Part shown: positions 3,936-38,133 of the stretch, one piece after another
Position numbering within the stretch: position 1 is the first letter of the stretch
Layout: every line of letters begins with the position of its first letter
Source: Thermomonas sp. S9
GTDB lineage: Bacteria > Pseudomonadota > Gammaproteobacteria > Xanthomonadales > Xanthomonadaceae
Reading direction: 5' to 3'
NCBI RefSeq assembly: GCF_024704365.1
Contig: NZ_JAJDFY010000001.1
Location: forward strand, 434,001 to 498,000
DNA: 64,000 nt
The notes under the pieces: model-generated
The model's database searches: none
What the model was told of the DNA's origin: nothing
What the model saw: the letters and a program-made list of their open reading frames with translations, nothing else
Position numbers and translations under genes: made by a program

Positions 3936-4361
3936 ATGCTCCGTTTCCTGCTGCGCTGCCTGTTGCTGGTGCTGCTGCCGCTGCTGGCCTGGCCAGTGGG
4001 TGCCGCCAGCAGCCGCCGCGATGCGCTCGACCAGGCCCAGTACGCGTGGTCGGAGGCGATCCGCTGGGGCGATTTCGAGCGCGCCTGGGGCCAGGTCGAT
4101 CCCGAGGTGCGCGCCGCGCACCCGCTGACCGACATCGATTTCTCGCGCTACCGGCAGCTGCAGGTCGCCGGCTACCGCGACCTCGGCAGCAGCGTGGTCG
4201 GCGGCAGCCAGATCCAGCGCCGGATCGAGATCACGGTGGTCAACCGCAATACCCAGCAGGTACGCACCGTGCTGTTCCAGGAACGCTGGCGCTTTGATCC
4301 GGCCCGCAAGACCTGGTGGCAGACCAGCGGCCTGCCCGATTTCTGGCAGGAGCAGGACTAA
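3936..4361 (+). CDS. Exported hypothetical protein, 141 aa
   Basis: Residues 1-23 form a clear signal peptide: positive start, leucine-rich core and a cleavage-like AWPVGAAS. The mature part is about 118 residues and contains WSEAIRWGDFERAW and a C-terminal WRFDPARKTWWQTSGLPDFW. No catalytic motif is seen. It resembles uncharacterised exported proteins of the Xanthomonadaceae. An AGGA sequence lies about 8 bases before ATG 3936. It is followed immediately by an unusual cluster of hairpins. Confidence 0.6.
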   Translation: MLRFLLRCLLLVLLPLLAWPVGAASSRRDALDQAQYAWSEAIRWGDFERAWGQVDPEVRAAHPLTDIDFSRYRQLQVAGYRDLGSSVVGGSQIQRRIEITVVNRNTQQVRTVLFQERWRFDPARKTWWQTSGLPDFWQEQD

Positions 4362-4501
4362 GGAACCTCTGACAACTCGGAGGTTCCCGCCGGCCATGGA
4401 GGGCTGGCCACGCATCCATCATGCAAGTGATGGATGCGTGTGAGCCGAGTCCGGGCCTGTACCGGACCCGGCGTGGGCTGACAACGCCTGGATGGCGTTG
4501 T
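4362..4501. repeat. Cluster of four consecutive perfect inverted repeats
   Basis: Starting one base after the stop codon at 4361 there are four separate perfect hairpins: arms 4362-4369/4380-4387, 4409-4421/4428-4440 (13 bp, 6-base loop), 4449-4454/4462-4467 and 4481-4488/4494-4501. No T-run follows any of them. This may be a dispersed extragenic palindromic element or a transcript 3'-end structure. Confidence 0.65.
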
Positions 4502-4545
4502 TCAGACCTTCCCTAAAACGGCCGCCCGCACCGTCAGCCGCTACA

Positions 4546-5010
4546 ATGGCCAGCCCCTTCCGACCGATCCATGCCGTGACCTTCGCCGAACTGGCCGCCT
4601 TCGCCGGCCGCAATCCCGTCCTGTCGCTGGCCTTCGTCGGCCTGACCGTGGCCATCATCGCCAACGAGATCGCCGGCCTGCTCAGCGGCATCAAGCGCGT
4701 CGGCCCGGCCCAGCTGACCGCGCTGGTCAACCGCGACAACGCGCTGGTGATCGACCTGCGCGCCGCCGCCGATTTCGCCAAGGGCCACATCGCCGGCGCG
4801 AAGAACGTGCAGATGAGCCAGTTCGACCCCGAGAACAAGGCGCTGGCCCCGGCCAAGGCGCTGCCGGTGGTGCTGGTATGCAACGTCGGCCAGACAGCGT
4901 CGGTCGCCGCCAGGCGCCTGCGCAAGGCCGGGTTCGCCAACGTGGCGGTGCTGGAGGGCGGCATCCGCGCCTGGCTGGCCGCCGACCTGCCGGTGGTCAA
5001 GGGCCGCTGA
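4546..5010 (+). CDS. Membrane-anchored rhodanese-like sulfurtransferase
   Basis: 154 residues when read from ATG 4546. One N-terminal transmembrane helix (about residues 25-46) is followed by a single rhodanese domain with the active-site cysteine at about residue 112 in VLVCNVGQTAS and the terminal motif VLEGGIRAWLAADLPV. Likely a cytoplasm-facing sulfurtransferase resembling YibN. An alternative GTG start at 4576 gives VTFAELAAFAG, closer to how relatives usually begin. The TACAAT around ATG 4546 looks like a -10 box, so GTG may be the true start. It precedes secB and gpsA, the usual order in Xanthomonadaceae. Confidence 0.75.
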   Translation: MASPFRPIHAVTFAELAAFAGRNPVLSLAFVGLTVAIIANEIAGLLSGIKRVGPAQLTALVNRDNALVIDLRAAADFAKGHIAGAKNVQMSQFDPENKALAPAKALPVVLVCNVGQTASVAARRLRKAGFANVAVLEGGIRAWLAADLPVVKGR

Positions 5011-5086
5011 GCGCCCCGCCCCCGCCCGGGGCTTGTGTTCGCCGCCGTCCGCCCCAATTTCGCTGGGGTTGCCCCGGGTTCGATGC

Positions 5087-5092
5087 GATAAT
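5087..5092 (+). promoter_or_regulatory. Candidate -10 box for secB
   Basis: GATAAT preceded by TGC (extended -10 form) lies 50 bases before the secB ATG. No convincing -35 hexamer is found at the right spacing. Confidence 0.35.
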
Positions 5093-5142
5093 CGACCTTC
5101 CCTTTTCGTTAGCCGCACCTTGCGTGCCTTCTGGAGTGTTCC

Positions 5143-5668
5143 ATGTCCGATGAAACCCTGAACGGCGCCGCGCCGTCCGCCGATGCCCCGATGGGCCCGA
5201 CCTTCACCGTCGAGAAGCTGTACGTGAAGGACGTGTCCTTCGAAGCGCCGAACGCGCCGCAGGTGTTCAACGAGCAGGGCCAACCCGACCTGCAGATGAA
5301 GCTCAACCAGAAGGTGCAGCGCCTGGCCGAGAACGCGTTCGAGGTCAGCCTGGGCATCACCCTGACCTGCACCCTGAACGGCAAGACCGCCTACCTGGCG
5401 GAAGTCGAGCAGGCCGGCGTGTTCGGTCTGGCCGGCATGGACGAGCAGATGATGGACGCCATGCTGGGCATCCAGTGCCCGAACATCCTGTACCCCTACG
5501 CCTCGGCGGCGGTGGGCCAGATGATCACCGCCGGCGGCTTCCCCGCCGTTCCCGATGCAGCCGATCAACTTCGAGGCGCTGTACGCCGAGACCTTGCGCC
5601 AGCGCGCCGCGCAGATGGGGCAGGAAGGCGGCCTGCTGGCCGACGCCGAAACCGCCGGCAACGCCTGA
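5143..5668 (+). CDS. secB: Protein-export chaperone SecB (frameshifted)
   Basis: Cytoplasmic chaperone that keeps preproteins unfolded and hands them to SecA. The family signatures [28 protein letters not shown] and CPNILYPYA are all present. The expected tail ([19 protein letters not shown]) is in another frame, reached by removing one C from the CCCC run at 5541-5544. Corrected length is about 174 residues, normal for SecB. GGAG lies about 8 bases before ATG 5143. The stop is at 5666-5668 and gpsA begins 10 bases later. The break is almost certainly a sequence error. Confidence 0.92.
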
Positions 5669-5678
5669 CCGGCGACGC

Positions 5679-6722
5679 ATGGCGGCAGCTGCCAAGCCGA
5701 AGGTCGCGGTCCTCGGCGCGGGCTCCTGGGGCACCGCGCTGGCCGCGCTGATCGCCCGCCACGGCCACCCCACGGTGCTGTGGGGGCGCGATCCGGCGGT
5801 GGCGTCCGCGATCGCCGGGCGCCACGAGAACCCGCGCTACCTGCCGGGCATCGCCCTGCCGGCGGGGCTGCACGCGACCACGTCGCTGCCGGACGCGATG
5901 GCCGATGCCGGCCTGGTGCTGGTGGTGGTGCCCTCGCACGCCTTCGCGGAGACCCTGCGCGCGCTGGCCCCGCTGCGGCCGGCGGGCGCCGGCGTGGTCT
6001 GGGCCACCAAGGGCTTCGAGCCGGGCAGCGGCCGCTTCCTGCACGAAGTCGCCGGTGACATTCTGGATGCCAGCGGGCTGGGCGGCGGCGTGCCGCTGGC
6101 GGTGGTCACCGGCCCTTCGTTCGCCAAGGAAGTGGCGGAAGGCCTGCCCACCGCGCTCACCGTGCATTCCGACGACGCCGGCTTCTGCCAGCAGGTCGCC
6201 GACGCCCTGCACGGCCCCGCGTTCCGCGCCTACACCGGCAATGACATGCGCGGCGCTGAGCTGGGCGGGGCGATGAAGAACGTGCTGGCCGTGGCCACCG
6301 GCGTCGCCGACGGCATGGGCCTGGGCCTGAACGCCCGCGCTGGCCTGATCACCCGCGGCCTCAACGAGATGCTGCGCCTCAACATCGCCCTCGGCGGCCG
6401 CCCGGAAACCCTGATGGGCCTGGCCGGGCTGGGCGACCTGGTGCTGACCTGCACGGGCGATCTCTCGCGCAACCGCCGGCTGGGCCTGGCGCTGGGCCGC
6501 GGCGCGTCGATCGCGGAGGCGGTGTGCGAGATCGGACAGGTGGTGGAATCGCTGCAGACCGCCGACGAGGTGATGCGCCTGGCGGACGCGCATGGCATTG
6601 AGCTGCCGATCGCCGAAGGCGTGCGCGACGTGCTGCACGGCGCGGTGACCCCGGCGGAAGGACTGGCGCGGCTGATGGCGCGCGAGCGCAAGGCCGAATA
6701 TCCGCAGTCGCTGTTCTGCTGA
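5679..6722 (+). CDS. gpsA: NAD(P)-dependent glycerol-3-phosphate dehydrogenase GpsA
   Basis: Reduces dihydroxyacetone phosphate to sn-glycerol 3-phosphate for phospholipid synthesis. 347 residues. The N-terminal Rossmann motif is [14 protein letters not shown], followed by WATKGFEP, the catalytic-lysine segment [13 protein letters not shown] and [20 protein letters not shown], all typical. It probably forms one transcription unit with secB (10-base gap) and perhaps the rhodanese gene. A bidirectional terminator-like hairpin follows at 6779. Confidence 0.95.
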
Positions 6723-6778
6723 CGCTGCTGACGGCCGCTGCTTCCGCGTGGCGGTCAATGCGGCGATGCCAAAGAAAA

Positions 6779-6800
6779 CGCCCGGCCTGCGCCGGGCGTT
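6779..6800. terminator. Bidirectional intrinsic terminator between gpsA and the Ax21-family gene
   Basis: Stem 6779-6786/6791-6798 with a 4-base loop. On the minus strand the stem is followed by TTTTCTTT, a good tail for the Ax21-family transcript; on the plus strand only a short T-run follows. A near-identical hairpin follows cspA at 51238. Confidence 0.75.
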
Positions 6801-6823
6801 TCCGTGTTGCGGCGTGGCGTCGC

Positions 6824-7384
6824 TTACCAGGTGAAGCGCGGGCCGACGAAGTACTGCTTGTCGCCGCCCTGGATCAGGCGCACGTCGGCGTTCATGCCGA
6901 AGTTCTGGGTGAACATCAGGTTCGCGCCCAGGCGGCCATAGGCTTCGCCGCTGGTCTTGTTGGTGTCCATGTAGCCGACCTTGGCATAGCCTTCCAGGTT
7001 CGGCATCAGGGCGCTGCGCACGCCGGTCTCGACGCTGTAGCCGTTGGCCTTCGGGCCGCCGTGCTTCACGGCGTAGCGGTCATAGGCCACGTCGGCCACG
7101 AAGTCGGTGTTCTTGCCGACCGCGGTGTTGTAGCCGCCGCCGATGCGCCACTGGTCGAAGCCGGCACTGGAGTGCTTCACGTCCTGGTTGGTGTACTCGG
7201 CCAGCAGGTGGAAGTTCGGGCTGACGGCGACCGAGCCGTTCACGCCCCAACCGTCCGCATCCGGGCCGCTGGTGTTGGTGGCGACGTAGCCACCCTGCAC
7301 GTAGTTGTAGGTGATGCCGTCGGCCGCGGAAGCGGCGAAGGGCAGGGCAGCAATCAGGGCCAGGGCAATGGCATAACGCTTCAT
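6824..7384 (-). CDS. Ax21-family outer-membrane protein
   Basis: 186 residues from ATG 7384, with signal peptide MKRYAIALALIAALPFAASA and a mature part rich in alternating aromatic and polar residues ending PRFTW, the usual C-terminal aromatic of outer-membrane barrels. The pattern ITYNYVQGGYVATN, DGWGVNGSVAVSPNFHL and FDQWRIGGGYNTAVG is that of the Xanthomonas/Stenotrophomonas Ax21 family of small barrels. The older claim that Ax21 is a secreted quorum/immune signal was withdrawn; an outer-membrane location is the safe reading. Upstream (7414-7439) is a large palindrome. Confidence 0.85.
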   Translation of the reverse strand: MKRYAIALALIAALPFAASAADGITYNYVQGGYVATNTSGPDADGWGVNGSVAVSPNFHLLAEYTNQDVKHSSAGFDQWRIGGGYNTAVGKNTDFVADVAYDRYAVKHGGPKANGYSVETGVRSALMPNLEGYAKVGYMDTNKTSGEAYGRLGANLMFTQNFGMNADVRLIQGGDKQYFVGPRFTW

Positions 7385-7413
7385 GGGGGATGACCTCCGT
7401 GTTTGTTGTTGTA

Positions 7414-7439
7414 CGCACGACCGACCGGTCGGGCGTGCG
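7414..7439. promoter_or_regulatory. 26-bp palindrome, candidate TetR-type operator
   Basis: The centre CCGACCGGTCGG (7421-7432) is a perfect palindrome and the flanks extend it to 26 bp with one mismatched pair. It contains GACC-N4-GGTC, the arrangement bound by some TetR-family repressors such as NemR. It lies 30 bp upstream of the Ax21-family start. No regulator gene is adjacent. Confidence 0.45.
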
Positions 7440-7552
7440 GCCATTGTTGGCGGGCGCCCGCAACGCGGCCTGAATCCAGAACTCTCTGGTACAGGAACCA
7501 TTCGGGAACGCAGGAGTAAACGCGCGCCTTTGTCTGTCGCGCTGCGCGGCGT

Positions 7553-8032
7553 TCAGTCGCCGCCGGTGAAACCGGCCTGGCGCCAGGCTTCGAACACCAT
7601 CACCGCCACCGCGTTGGACAGGTTGAGGCTGCGGTTGTGCGGGCGCATCGGCAGGCGCAGGCGCTGCGCCTCGGGGATCGCCTCCAGCACCGCCTGCGGC
7701 AGTCCGGCGGTTTCGCTGCCGAACAGGAACACGTCGTCGTCGCGGTAGGCCGGCGTGTCGTAGCGCACGCGGCCGCGGGTGGACAGCGCGAACACCCGCG
7801 GCCGCGCGCCGATGTCGGCGGCGATCGCCGCCAGCGCGGCGTCGAGATCGTCGTGCACCTGCACCCGCGCGTACTCGTGGTAGTCCAGCCCGGCGCGCCT
7901 GAGCTGGCGATCCTCGAGGTCGAAGCCGAGCGGGCGCACCAGGTGCAGCCGCGCGCCGGTGTTGGCGCACAGACGGATCACGTTGCCGGTATTGGGCGGG
8001 ATTTCCGGGCGATGCAGGATGACGTGCGGCAT
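7553..8032 (-). CDS. trmL: tRNA (cytidine(34)-2'-O)-methyltransferase TrmL
   Basis: SPOUT-class methyltransferase that 2'-O-methylates the wobble base of tRNA-Leu isoacceptors. 159 residues, the usual length. Visible motifs: PEIPPNTGNVIRLCANTG at the N-terminus, FLFGSETAGLP (AdoMet-binding knot) and LPMRPHNRSLNLSNAVAV near the C-terminus. It starts at ATG 8032. The downstream Ax21-family gene has its own promoter region of about 170 bp. Confidence 0.93.
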   Translation of the reverse strand: MPHVILHRPEIPPNTGNVIRLCANTGARLHLVRPLGFDLEDRQLRRAGLDYHEYARVQVHDDLDAALAAIAADIGARPRVFALSTRGRVRYDTPAYRDDDVFLFGSETAGLPQAVLEAIPEAQRLRLPMRPHNRSLNLSNAVAVMVFEAWRQAGFTGGD

Positions 8033-8051
8033 CGCGGCATTGTAGGGCGGC

Positions 8052-8753
8052 CTACCAGGGCAGCGTCTGGCCCTGCCAGTCGAGGAAGGCGCCGGACTGC
8101 GCGGGCGTGGCGCGCTCGATCACCCGCAGCAGCCCGGCCGCCGATTCCTGCGCGCTCAGCGACGCCTGCGGCCCGCCCATGTCAGTCTGCACCCAGCCCG
8201 GGTGCAGCTGCAGCACCACGATGCCGCGCGGCGCCAGCGCCTGCGCGAGCTGCGCGCCCAGCATGTTCTGCGCCGCCTTGCCGGCGCAGTAGCTGGGCGT
8301 GCCGAAGCGGGCCACGCGCGCGATCGAGCCCAGCTGCGAGCTGAGGTTGGCGACGGTGGCGCCGTCGCGCAGGTGCGCGGCCAGCGCCTGCACCAGCAGG
8401 AACGGGCCGATCGCGTTGGTGCGCAGGCTCTCCTCCAGCGCAGCCTGGGTCACCTGGCCGAAGCGCTCGCCCGGCTGCAGCACGCCGGCGTTGTTGATCA
8501 ACAGGTCCAGCGCCGCGCCGGCGAGGGTGTGCTCCAGTACCGCCGTGAACTGCACGCGTGCGGCCTCGCTGGCCACGTCCAGCGCCAGCACCCGCAATTG
8601 GCCTGGATGCGCCGTGCCCAGCGCCTGCAGCGCCGTCGCCTGCGCGGGCTGGCGGCAGGTGGCGATCACGGCCTCGCCGCGGGCCAGCAGCTGGCGCGTG
8701 AATTCGAGCCCGAGGCCGCGGTTGGCGCCGGTGACGAGGACGGTGCATGGCAT
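8052..8753 (-). CDS. Short-chain dehydrogenase/reductase, C-factor-like
   Basis: 233 residues. Cofactor-binding TGANRGLG at the N-terminus, NNAG (LLINNAGVL), Ser in NLSSQLGS, and the catalytic YxxxK in SYCAGKAAQ. The overall layout fits the CsgA/C-factor-like SDR subgroup, for which substrates are mostly unknown. The stop lies 19 bases from trmL on the same strand, so the two may be co-transcribed. It is divergent from the M16 peptidase gene. Confidence 0.8.
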   Translation of the reverse strand: MPCTVLVTGANRGLGLEFTRQLLARGEAVIATCRQPAQATALQALGTAHPGQLRVLALDVASEAARVQFTAVLEHTLAGAALDLLINNAGVLQPGERFGQVTQAALEESLRTNAIGPFLLVQALAAHLRDGATVANLSSQLGSIARVARFGTPSYCAGKAAQNMLGAQLAQALAPRGIVVLQLHPGWVQTDMGGPQASLSAQESAAGLLRVIERATPAQSGAFLDWQGQTLPW

Positions 8754-31011: not shown

Positions 31012-31088
31012 GCGCCTGTAGCTCAGCCGGATAGAGTAGTGGCTTCCGAAGCCATTGGTCGGGGGTTCGAATCCCTCCAGGCGCGCCA
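31012..31088 (+). tRNA. tRNA-Arg (anticodon CCG)
   Basis: A complete cloverleaf: 7-bp acceptor stem 31012-31018/31078-31084, D arm with AGCTCAG, anticodon loop TTCCGAA giving CCG (reads CGG), T loop TTCGAAT and encoded CCA at 31086-31088. A direct repeat of TCTGGGACA units begins 17 bases after it. It marks the left edge of an accessory stretch, and fragments resembling its 3' half occur at 33508-33533 and 33635-33650. Confidence 0.97.
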
Positions 31089-31167
31089 AACCCCCTGTGA
31101 CAAATCTGGGACAGATCTGGGACAAAACCTGATCGGGTTCCCTGCCCGGATTGAGTAAAGGCGCGCC

Positions 31168-31788
31168 ATGCCCAAGCCCATCCTCCAGATCCGGGTCGAG
31201 CTCCAGGAAATCGAACCACTGGTCTGGCGCCGCCTGCAGGTGCCGGGCGACTACACCTTCTGGGACCTGCACGTCGCCATCCAGAGCGCCTTCGCCTGGA
31301 CCGACACCCACCTGCATGAGTTCCGGCCCTGGGGCCAGCGCGACGGCACGCCGCGCTTCGGCATGCCGCTCGACGACTTCGACGACAACCCGCCCCTGCC
31401 CGGCTGGGAACACCGCGTGGCCGACGTCCTGACCCGTGCCAATCCCCGGATCGAGTACGAATACGACTTCGGCGACGGCTGGGAGCACACGGTCGTACTC
31501 GAGGAGATCCTCGAGGCGGCACCGGGCAAGAAGTACCCGCGCTGCACCGCCGGCGAGCGCTCGGCGCCGCCCGACGACTGCGGCGGCCCCGGCGGCTACG
31601 AAAGCCTGCTCGAAACCCTGGCGGACCCCGAGGACCCGGAGCACACGTCGTCCCACGTCTGGGCCAGCAGCCAGAAGGGCCGGCGCGGCAAGTTCGACCC
31701 CGAGGCCTTCGACGAGCAGCAGGTGAAGTTCGCCAACCCGGCGCCTCGACTCAAACGGCTGCTGGCGTACCTGGCATCCCGGCGTTGA
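31168..31788 (+). CDS. Plasmid pRiA4b ORF-3-like protein
   Basis: 206 residues belonging to the pRiA4b ORF-3 / IS1096 TnpR-like family: LQIRVELQEIEPLVWRRLQV, FWDLHVAIQSAFAWTDTHLHEF, YEYDFGDGWEHTVVLE and CGGPGGYESLL are its hallmark motifs. The molecular role of the family is unknown; members are common on plasmids and genomic islands. It lies 80 bases after tRNA-Arg and converges on the AbiE operon with almost no gap, and the abiEii frame as written runs antisense through it. Confidence 0.85.
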   Translation: MPKPILQIRVELQEIEPLVWRRLQVPGDYTFWDLHVAIQSAFAWTDTHLHEFRPWGQRDGTPRFGMPLDDFDDNPPLPGWEHRVADVLTRANPRIEYEYDFGDGWEHTVVLEEILEAAPGKKYPRCTAGERSAPPDDCGGPGGYESLLETLADPEDPEHTSSHVWASSQKGRRGKFDPEAFDEQQVKFANPAPRLKRLLAYLASRR

Positions 31789-31801
31789 CGGCCGGCCCCG
31801 G

Positions 31802-32670
31802 CTATCGGGGGCCTGCGGCGTCTCAAGAAGCGGAGCCACGACGCCAGCGAGCTCGGCCACTACCTCGGCAAGCCCAGGCGCCTCCAGCCGACCCCTTTCG
31901 AGGAAGGCCCGCCATTGCTTCTGCTTGGCGCTGTCTGAGGCGAACGCCTCCGTCAGCCCCACCGGCAGGGAACCAGGCATTGGGGTGTCCCGTCGCGCGA
32001 ACGTGGCGGACACGGCGTTTCGAAGCACCGTCGGATCGAGCCGGCCCTCCTGGGCCAGGCTGAGCAGATCGAAGTAATCCTTCATCCGGCTGTTGGTCAT
32101 GCCGAGCACGACGATCGCCTCCAGCTTCTCGGCGAAGACGGTTTCGCGCGGATAGATGCGCAGCGAGGGCACGGGCAGGTCATCGAGCAGGGTCGGCAGT
32201 TCGGCGTCCTCGGGCCCAGGCGTCACGGCATCCCCGAACCCGATATCCCACTGGATTAGACACTCCGCCGATCCGAGTCGTGCTCTCAGGTTCACGCGCA
32301 GCCCGTCGTAGCGCGCCGTTTCCCGGATCTCGCTGACACGCAGGCCCGCGAGGTCGAAGGCCAGGCCGTCGTCGACCTCAAGTTCGCAGAGTTCGCGGAC
32401 GATGGCTTCGATCCGCGCCGGATCCGCCGCGCCAAAGCCCAGGAAGTCCGCGTCGCGCGTCGGCCTGTGCTCCTGGTCGAACCAGTGCCGGAAAAGCATG
32501 GCGCCCTTGAGCAGGAAGTCATCCCGGTGGCGCGAGATCGAGAGCCGATACAGGAGACGCTCGACGGCGTATCGATCGAGCGTGAGCTGGAACTCCTCGC
32601 CCGACGTCTTCGCATGGTTCAGCAGCCGCTGGCGGATCGAATCGACGCGGGCTGGCGAGGGCGCACTCAT
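31802..32670 (-). CDS. abiEii: AbiEii-family nucleotidyltransferase toxin
   Basis: Toxin half of a type IV AbiE toxin-antitoxin/abortive-infection pair. From ATG 32670: RYAVERLLYRLSIS, the nucleotidyltransferase core FLLKGAMLFRHWF and PTRDADFLGFG (the DxD-like pair), then YPRETVFAEKLEAIVVLGMTNSRMKDYFDL with the conserved K and D segments. About 290 residues are expected. As written there is no stop and the frame runs on to 30952. One extra C in the run at 31806-31810 would create TAG at 31802-31804, so the stop was probably lost to a homopolymer error. The start overlaps the abiEi stop (ATGA). Confidence 0.85.
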
Positions 32671-33262
32671 GCCACCGATTCCAGATAGGGACGCATCACG
32701 TTCGCCATCCGAAGCTGGCTCGCCAGCCGCCAGAGTTCGTCGTTGCTCGCCCGACGCTCGCGGCGCAGCTGGGACAGCGCCTCCAGCGCCACGTCCAGGC
32801 CAATCCTGTTGCGGAACTTGAAACAATCCACGACGGTCCGTGCGACCCCGGTAACCCGAAGCGGCACGCCATCGCGGTCATGGGTTTCGATCCCGGCCGA
32901 GAGGCCGGCACCCGAGTACCGAACGACCCGCAGCGAAGGCCAGTCAAGCTTGGGCGCGTGCCGGCCGGCGGCAATACCAGCCAGACCGAGTGCGGTGCCT
33001 GTGTCGTGAGCCCGTGGAAGCGCAGCGCCGTCAGGAGGCAGAAGAATCCGTCGGGCACGCGGCGCGCGACGATCTGCAGCCCCTCGTCCGCCGACGGCGC
33101 CCGACCGGGCAGCGAGTAGACGCCACGCGCCAGCCTGACCAGCTCACCCCGTTGCACCAGGCGCGCGATCTGGGCGCCCTCCAGCCCGGCGGCCCGGAGG
33201 TCGCGGGCCCGGGCACTGCCCTGAGCTTCGAGCAGGTGCTTGGCTTTGGCGTGGGGATCCAT
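32667..33262 (-). CDS. abiEi: AbiEi-family antitoxin/transcriptional repressor (frameshifted)
   Basis: Antitoxin of the AbiE pair: N-terminal winged-helix (LRAAGLEGAQIARLVQRGEL, LARGVYSLPG) and C-terminal domain (RVTGVARTVVDCFKFRNRIG, LDVALEALSQL). One missing base near 32951 in a CCC run separates the halves; corrected, the join reads LDWPSLRVVRYSGAGLSAG. Family members repress their own operon by binding inverted repeats upstream. ATG 33262 is chosen because the likely promoter leaves almost no leader; an in-frame ATG at 33298 overlaps the -35 box. About 198 residues. Confidence 0.82.
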
Positions 33263-33298
33263 GCCGAAAGATTGTTCCAATTCGGCAATCAAAGTCAA
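33263..33298 (-). promoter_or_regulatory. abiE promoter with overlapping inverted repeats
   Basis: On the minus strand TTGACT (33293-33298) and AACAAT (33271-33276) are 16 bp apart. Two nested inverted repeats sit over the -10: GCCGAA (33263-33268)/TTCGGC (33281-33286) and GATTG (33270-33274)/CAATC (33286-33290). This fits autorepression by AbiEi and a nearly leaderless transcript. Confidence 0.5.
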
Positions 33299-33689
33299 TT
33301 ATGTGTGCGATTTTGTAACGTTCGCTGTACGCCCCGGGAGGTAGCCTCTACTCCATTGACCGTGCCGCGGAGAGCTTTGGGGCGAGGCGCCAAATGGCCT
33401 CAAGCGAACTCTTTGCAGGTCGGGCATGGCGCGTGCAGAAGCCGGCCAGATCGCTTCGAGCGAATGGAGATGGTCTGTAATCCTTTGCCGTCACTGGGAT
33501 TCCACGCCTTCCGAAGCCCCTCCGGGCGCGCCATCTTCGATGGCGCTTCCTGCGTGATTTCCGGCCCGCGCGCGGCCCGCGCGCAGGCGTTCGCGTTCGC
33601 GCGAAGCTGGCGCTTCGCAGGTGCGTCCGCTCACCCCTCCGGGCGCGCCATCTCCGGTGCCGCCGCGCTTTGCGTGGCTCCGCCGGCCT
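33299..33689. other. Gene-free interval with tRNA-like fragments and repeats
   Basis: No credible gene. It contains CTTCCGAAGCC (33508-33518) directly followed by a 16-mer (33518-33533) that matches the last 16 bases of tRNA-Arg except for one, an exact second copy of that 16-mer at 33635-33650 within a 20-bp direct repeat, an 8-bp hairpin at 33528-33546 and an 11-bp GC-only tandem duplication at 33563-33584. Likely a decayed island boundary. Confidence 0.55.

Positions 33690-36725: not shown

Positions 36726-36733
<8 letters not shown>
35687..36733 (+). CDS. ntrB: Nitrogen regulation sensor kinase NtrB (GlnL)
   Basis: Cytoplasmic histidine kinase that phosphorylates NtrC under nitrogen limitation, controlled by PII. 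348 residues from ATG 35687 (ATG 35693 also possible). A PAS-like N-terminal domain is followed by the H box LAHELRNPLLGIKGAAQLL, N box QAVWNLVRNAIEA, G1 DDGRGVPPEL and G2 DGTGLGLALAQQVAREHRG. Its end overlaps ntrC by 8 bases. No glnA or glnK is present in the window. Confidence 0.92.

Positions 36734-38133
<1,400 letters not shown>

Follow-up and report, generated by a model that had tools for sequence, protein, structure and literature searches.

A CIME-like mini-island carrying an AbiE pair at tRNA-Arg(CCG) of Thermomonas sp. S9, probably mobilised in trans

Among described systems, cis-mobilizable elements (CIMEs; PMC5704250) and the tRNA islands reported by Islander (PMC4383910) come closest to a small toxin–antitoxin island that we studied at the tRNA-Arg(CCG) gene of Thermomonas sp. 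S9. The island lies in a stretch of 64,000 nucleotides (contig NZ_JAJDFY010000001.1, positions 434,001 to 498,000, forward strand), called the window throughout, and carries a pRiA4b ORF-3-like gene and an abiE pair. As CIMEs are portrayed in the excerpts of PMC5704250, the unit resembles them in that no integration or transfer genes are seen in it, its attachment (att) cores are kept, and it is found both by itself and together on one contig with an element at this tRNA that bears an integrase. It differs from that portrayal in not being a visibly decayed integrative and conjugative element, in its compact and recurrent gene order, in its usual first gene, in its swappable toxin–antitoxin cargo and in its occurrence in several genera. 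It shares with Islander islands, going by the excerpted text of PMC4383910, a regenerated tRNA and a displaced fragment that mark the ends, and a crossover centred on the anticodon; the Islander filter, however, tests for an integrase gene, and none was detected within the unit. Unlike an integrative and mobilizable element, the unit encodes no detected integrase of its own.

Three further systems bear comparison, each as represented in excerpts of its source. Like CALINs (clusters of attC sites lacking integron integrases, that is, integron cassette arrays without an integrase) and other hitchers (PMC11389934), the unit would need a recombinase in trans and may stand in tandem, whereas it sits in a tRNA anticodon loop and has arm-like repeats. 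As in the additive flexible islands of Methylophilaceae (PMC10872708), recurring tRNA 3'-end copies mark additive cargo; those islands use the last 20 bp of tRNA-Lys(ctt), and the excerpted description does not include a core with phased repeats. Finally, ICESsuHN105 also has an AbiEi/AbiEii pair on an integrative element, a type IV toxin–antitoxin system whose AbiEi binds oriT and steadies the element (PMC11062541); unlike there, no integrase was found in the window unit, whose AbiE pair is a predicted toxin–antitoxin system. We conclude that the unit fits best among tRNA islands of a CIME-like type, and that it is probably a non-autonomous integrative unit mobilised in trans by an integrase of the PF12167 type. 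Its features are as follows (L and G numbers denote loci and genomes of our comparison).

31012–31088, + strand: tRNA-Arg(CCG), by ARAGORN, the sole tRNA found in the window.
31043–33518, + strand: the entire mobile unit of 2,476 bp, from one core to the other; homology with Arenimonas L092 begins and ends at the cores.
31043–31053, + strand: left core CTTCCGAAGCC, the tRNA-Arg(CCG) anticodon loop with flanking stem bases.
31096–31124, + strand: three direct repeats, TGTGACA, TGGGACA and TGGGACA, with starts 11 bp apart; presumed integrase arm-type sites.
31168–31788, + strand: pRiA4b ORF-3-like gene (PF07929, E 1.8e-58), the usual first gene of such units.
31802–32670, − strand: abiEii, toxin-type nucleotidyltransferase (PF08843 over the cut-off, E 2e-46).
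32667–33298, − strand: abiEi, antitoxin-type (PF13338, E 8.4e-10), with the N-terminal AbiEi domain present.
33468–33507, + strand: right-end sequence, similar to the right ends of units with other cargo.
33508–33518, + strand: right core CTTCCGAAGCC, a second copy of the left core.
33518–33533, + strand: displaced host tRNA 3' end, the 16-mer CCCTCCGGGCGCGCCA, one base off the tRNA 3' end.
33635–33651, + strand: tRNA-3'-end copy of a native repeat outside the unit; likewise in L050 at +109, with one mismatch.

An earlier note on this DNA had read the locus as tRNA-Arg(CCG) followed by a pRiA4b ORF-3-like gene and an abiE pair, on which ARAGORN, Pfam and PADLOC agree, and had described an anticodon-arm copy joined to a 16-mer one base off the tRNA 3' end, which we located at 33508–33533. 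A regenerated tRNA and a displaced fragment, in the right orientation, are present at the unit. In order to find the site without its insert, 60 relatives were searched with the tRNA, and 40 tRNA loci were fetched from 39 of them. The window's GGDEF-EAL gene stands behind the tRNA in two of these, L050 (G008) and L049 (G007); elsewhere the fetched neighbourhood was different or short. L050, from the same genus, is an empty site of the kind that the note had proposed to look for: only a short native flank separates the tRNA from the same GGDEF-EAL gene (91% identical to the window's), and neither pRiA4b nor abiE is present there. When the window flanks are joined at the core and aligned with L050, 254 of 294 aligned bases are identical, with gaps of 1 to 6 bp plus one large gap beside the core, corresponding to 20 bp absent between the right core and the displaced tRNA 3' end. 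The left attachment site (attL) is complete and both cores are retained, while the right side is short of 20 bp next to its core. The genes are far from universal among relatives: pRiA4b occurs in 2 of the 25 genomes of the genus (window included), each time directly behind tRNA-Arg(CCG).

Since the empty site L050 holds a tRNA-3'-end copy at +109, the window's copy at 33635 is native, and the unit therefore spans 31043–33518. The earlier claim of a tRNA-anchored integrated element of about 2.5 kb stands, at 2,476 bp and with an empty site, whereas its right border at 33653 is rejected in favour of 33518. The sequence CCCTCCRGGCGCGCCA (the 16-mer with either base) has three copies in the whole 2.85-Mb genome, at the tRNA, 33518 and 33635; the reversed CCCTCCRGGCGCGCCA, used as a control, has no match there. 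A 17-mer allowing up to 2 mismatches gave 3 matches in the window against 0.21 expected, and 0 of 100 shuffles reached 3. With just three genome copies, an origin of the 16-mer as a common dispersed repeat, which the note had named as a possible refutation, is ruled out. Behind tRNA-Arg(CCG) there are tandem repeats of 114–118 bp, each with a tRNA 3' end, which form arrays in L033, L035 and L068; we take them to resemble the tyrT repeats of E. coli. One window repeat unit folds barely better than shuffles (z −1.2). Such tRNA-3'-end repeats were also noted in L039, L050, L060 and at window positions 33518–33651.

The base that sets the 16-mer apart bears on the origin of the tRNA itself. Where the window's tRNA has A, G is found in the displaced 3' end and also in the native repeat. 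Both tRNA and copies have G in L050, L060 and L068 and A in L033, L035 and L039; in L052 the tRNA has G and the copy C. Because abiE units elsewhere (L092, L093, L094, L096 and L098) carry A while the displaced and native copies have G, the tRNA's A most likely arrived with the unit, the paired base of the 5' half then changing to match. The present tRNA-Arg(CCG) would thus consist of the host's 5' half and a 3' half supplied by the unit.

No integration or transfer genes were recognised among the unit's three genes, for which no dedicated relaxase or transfer-gene model was run. The absence of a visible integrase, remarked on in the earlier note, holds in both a Pfam scan and a recombinase profile built from four integrases, which has no match in 10 unit stretches; the profile's three controls are members of the four building sequences. 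The AbiEi and AbiEii models of PADLOC both match the pair, and AbiEii matches AbiGII in the Protein Data Bank (PDB; 9hlo, E 6.2e-28); NCBIfam gave no match for the three proteins.

Candidate helpers are found at the same tRNA. Its 45-nt half, with up to 3 mismatches, is present in 271 of 297 genomes of the window's family, and 12 of the 297 hold at least two copies of the 3' half (in one, G068, both have the same flanks and may be an assembly duplicate). Elements at tRNA-Arg(CCG) in G074, G126, G250 and G159 encode integrases that all match PF12167 and are 44–60% identical to one another; the two elements scanned whole have Arm-DNA-bind_2 and Phage_integrase domains. At 60 bits or more, PF12167 has 22 matches over the 297 genomes, one per genome, and eight of them (G159, G250, G074, G126, G312, G191, G114 and G165) share a contig with a tRNA-Arg(CCG) 3' half and lie 0.8–33 kb downstream of it. 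Thirteen genomes have pRiA4b or a piece of it behind tRNA-Arg(CCG), one at a decayed tRNA copy; seven of these have a PF12167 match over the cut-off, which in G198 falls within a short open frame of 74 aa. Among the named strains, A. fontis 3729k combines the unit with no PF12167 match, whereas A. caeni z29 has such an integrase and an incomplete unit. In G312 and G250, the unit and an integrase-bearing element are on the same contig.

The left end of the unit carries TG(T/G)G(A/C)C-type repeats whose starts lie at +8, +19 and +30 behind the tRNA end, and helical phasing of this sort is typical of the arm-type sites of tyrosine integrases. The layout recurs in most of the other left ends listed. 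On both strands, the phased triple occurs once in the window, at 31096, and once in the 1,013,066 bases of the 40 tRNA loci, at +8 of a tRNA (L038). In 20 loci picked for genomes with extra tRNA 3' halves (L130–L149), the triple turns up nine times, on each occasion at +8 of a tRNA-type 3' end. Integrase-bearing elements have the triple in L130 and L139 and two of the three repeats in L135; the left end is thus common to three of the four such elements at this tRNA, which suggests mobilisation in trans. Right ends were compared over 39 positions, for which 3,000 random window pairs give a mean of 15.1 matches (95th percentile 19, 99th 21, maximum 23). The right ends of units that differ in cargo are partly alike: that of L136 (tacAT-hipBA) matches that of L093 (abiE) at 29/39 and that of L137 (Fic) at 28/39, whereas nine other pre-core sequences match at 10–19/39. 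Two of these nine, L132 and L133, belong to integrase-bearing elements, which on this side do not share the end of the units.

Two side observations concern these ends. Behind a hipBA unit in L142 (about 8009–8090), a different tRNA 3' half is followed by the same phased repeats; this variant half may derive from a host whose tRNA-Arg sequence differs. A stretch of roughly 130 bp, made up of an orphan tRNA 5' half with core, a promoter-like stretch and a complete tRNA, was seen in L130, L135, L139, L098, L117 and L179, and in altered form in L136 and L186. It looks as if an insertion had supplied a new tRNA 5' half.

By its sequence, the unit takes up the anticodon-loop region of tRNA-Arg(CCG), with a new 3' half in place and the old one displaced. 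In the mechanism that we propose, larger elements at this tRNA, mostly with the same phased repeats, would provide an Arm-DNA-bind_2-type tyrosine integrase (PF12167 plus PF00589) that excises and integrates the unit in trans. With such a helper the unit would move between cells, either by itself or arranged in tandem with the helper. Addiction or phage defence by the AbiE pair probably maintains the unit or its helper in the population; pRiA4b is a usual companion.

Several observations weigh against this proposal. Neither excision of the unit nor a circular form nor its transfer was seen. The window genome (89.9% complete, in two contigs) has eight PF00589 matches and no PF12167 match, and 14 of the 22 PF12167 matches in the family are not tied to this tRNA (seven on a contig other than the listed tRNA copies, three with unlisted tRNA positions, four without a tRNA match). 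A fourth integrase-bearing element, L144, has no repeats behind its tRNA, and the Arenimonas fontis unit L093 shows no triple by the strict pattern; the unit of A. caeni, L094, is without a right end. The right ends of the integrase-bearing L132 and L133 are unlike those of the units (12–18/39), and the window's own right end matches the most distant unit right ends at 19–21/39 (L137 at 19), near chance. A divergent recombinase could be missed because the profile and its controls come from the same four integrases. Lastly, the window copy may be locked in place, because its right attachment site (attR) lost 20 bp next to the core.

A broader reading starts from the cargo. Related units keep the left end and pRiA4b while the cargo is swapped: abiE, hipBA (L142, by Pfam), tacAT with hipBA (L136, tacAT by Pfam; L186, by similar open reading frames) or Fic (L137, a contig starting inside pRiA4b). 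Across the family, 36 pRiA4b matches were found in 31 of 297 genomes, and 13 have a tRNA-Arg(CCG) 3' end immediately before them (nine observed as such; G312:C24 and G187 by coordinates; G106:C16, whose contig starts inside the tRNA end; and G106:C30, assigned from the same layout). Twenty have no such tRNA end in the fetched 1.7–3.6 kb, among them L186 (G283), where pRiA4b stands behind a decayed tRNA copy; three are outside this count, being second copies in G217, G269 and G280. Seventeen of these remaining 23 belong to one genus (g37). The tRNA-Arg(CCG) of this family might host a cassette system with standard ends (on the left a tRNA 3' half, three phased arm sites and pRiA4b), in which resident integrases would shuffle and stack interchangeable AbiE, HipBA, TacAT and Fic cargo in trans, while pRiA4b would serve specifically for mobility or targeting; we advance this tentatively, as a possibility well below even. 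An integrase-less stretch at the same tRNA in L136 (about 4235–8605, reverse strand of the locus) carries a divergent AbiE pair and no pRiA4b. Among the matches listed from open-licence PubMed Central (PMC) papers, going by the parts available, none ties pRiA4b to tRNA islands, and none was found in these papers that joins tRNA genomic islands of Thermomonas or Arenimonas, integrase and toxin–antitoxin.

The spread of the unit was assessed from an AbiEii genome scan, which gave 38 loci; 13 loci (10 of the 38 and three others) were compared closely. The pRiA4b gene and the abiE pair occur in the same order in L092, L093, L094, L096, L097 (a short contig) and L098. The window unit is identical to that of L092, an Arenimonas metagenome-assembled genome (MAG; G312) in which misbinning is possible, at 2392 of 2476 positions (96.6%), with two one-base length differences. 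Over aligned bases, identity is 89.6% for L096, 87.2% for L093 (A. fontis 3729k, a named strain, inside an intact tRNA-Arg(CCG)) and 87.4% for L094 (A. caeni, likewise a named strain); for L098 it is 75.5%. Compared with Arenimonas L149/L092, pRiA4b is 97.6% and AbiEii 96.2% identical as proteins, while AbiEii of T. hydrothermalis is just 88.7% identical to the window's. The core comparison rests on one protein, an NtrC-type regulator, whose C-terminal 375 aa are identical to the window's at 95% in G008, 80% in G007 and G004, 76% in G250, 75% in G021 and A. fontis, 74% in G312 and 67% in Silanimonas G157. Unit identity of 96.6% across genera against 74% for the core protein, and unit identities that run against the core-protein order (T. 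hydrothermalis being nearer by core), speak for recent movement between genera and against an old relic. Of the earlier alternative, a relic or an element mobilised in trans, recent mobility is thus favoured by the identity with Arenimonas; the action in trans is what we infer. The L096 contig, JAIBEO010000080.1, is filed as a Rhizobium MAG, and the same-position contig is G250, of the window's family and genus g62; this genus also holds G123 and G191, whose coordinates fit A. fontis and A. caeni.

It might be argued that the unit is a decayed remnant of one larger element, its middle with the integrase deleted locally and its ends fossils. The displaced tRNA half is partly deleted, L094 has lost its right end, and T. 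hydrothermalis (L049/L095, G007:C62) retains abiE without pRiA4b, with the native repeat on the left, a core remnant on the right and a rearranged left side. The abiE genes are also frameshifted: abiEii loses its in-frame stop through a one-base frameshift near 31806, and abiEi is split by another near 32976, where the frame is open in L092, L093, L094 and L096. Both breaks, however, are one-base differences in a short C or G run, and they may be assembly errors, with true decay as the alternative; this is a fair explanation because a core gene, the NtrC-type response regulator (window 36726–38133), is likewise split over two frames (its best match lies in an open frame of at least 477 aa in 12 of 12 genomes searched) and the genome is 89.9% complete. 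Moreover, the same gene order, framed by both borders, is found in L092, L093 and L096 (the Arenimonas group), L098 (Silanimonas) and the window, so that any shrinkage would be older than the spread, which went on at 96.6% identity across genera. We consider a local remnant doubtful. In L117 a pRiA4b piece and an abiEii piece lie about 5 kb apart, and more distant abiE genes without this pRiA4b are found in L099, L109, L079, L080 and L081.

The tRNA is conserved widely enough, in 271 of the 297 family genomes, for the unit to have spread by homologous recombination between tRNA flanks after DNA uptake, with no site-specific recombination. The DNA of L092 outside the cores, however, is unrelated to the window's, with other modules on each side (on the left a gene for a 1,768-aa protein, on the right another unit, with hipBA), and homology stops at the 11-bp cores, which makes such a route improbable. 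It is highly improbable that the trans recombinase is not the PF12167 integrase but a very large protein (1,768–2,056 aa) beside the unit in Arenimonas: such proteins, of two types about 23% identical, adjoin units in L092, L094, L096 and L186, that of L096 weakly resembles Phage_integrase (E 0.056, which does not reach the cut-off) and conserved Arg, Lys, Arg, Gly-His and Tyr can be read by eye in a three-sequence alignment, so that a divergent recombinase is possible, yet that of L149 (L092) matches nothing in Pfam even with E allowed up to 1, no recombinase is among the PDB matches and the structure model is unusable (predicted local distance difference test, pLDDT, 48). As to sources, a phage origin was set aside, no close pRiA4b relative being found on viral contigs in a single-protein scan for close relatives, and no recent plasmid source was seen: 2,759 plasmid records have pRiA4b relatives, every best match below 60% identity, and a plasmid near-DNA search with the GGDEF-EAL gene gave short or distant matches only.

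If the unit is indeed a trans-mobilised mini-island, a class of recently mobile carriers of toxin–antitoxin and defence genes may be overlooked, because finders that require an integrase, such as the Islander filter in the excerpts of PMC4383910, drop small units that have none. The signature of phased repeats together with exact cores would be a simple way to find such units, and the pRiA4b ORF-3 family gains a concrete genetic context.

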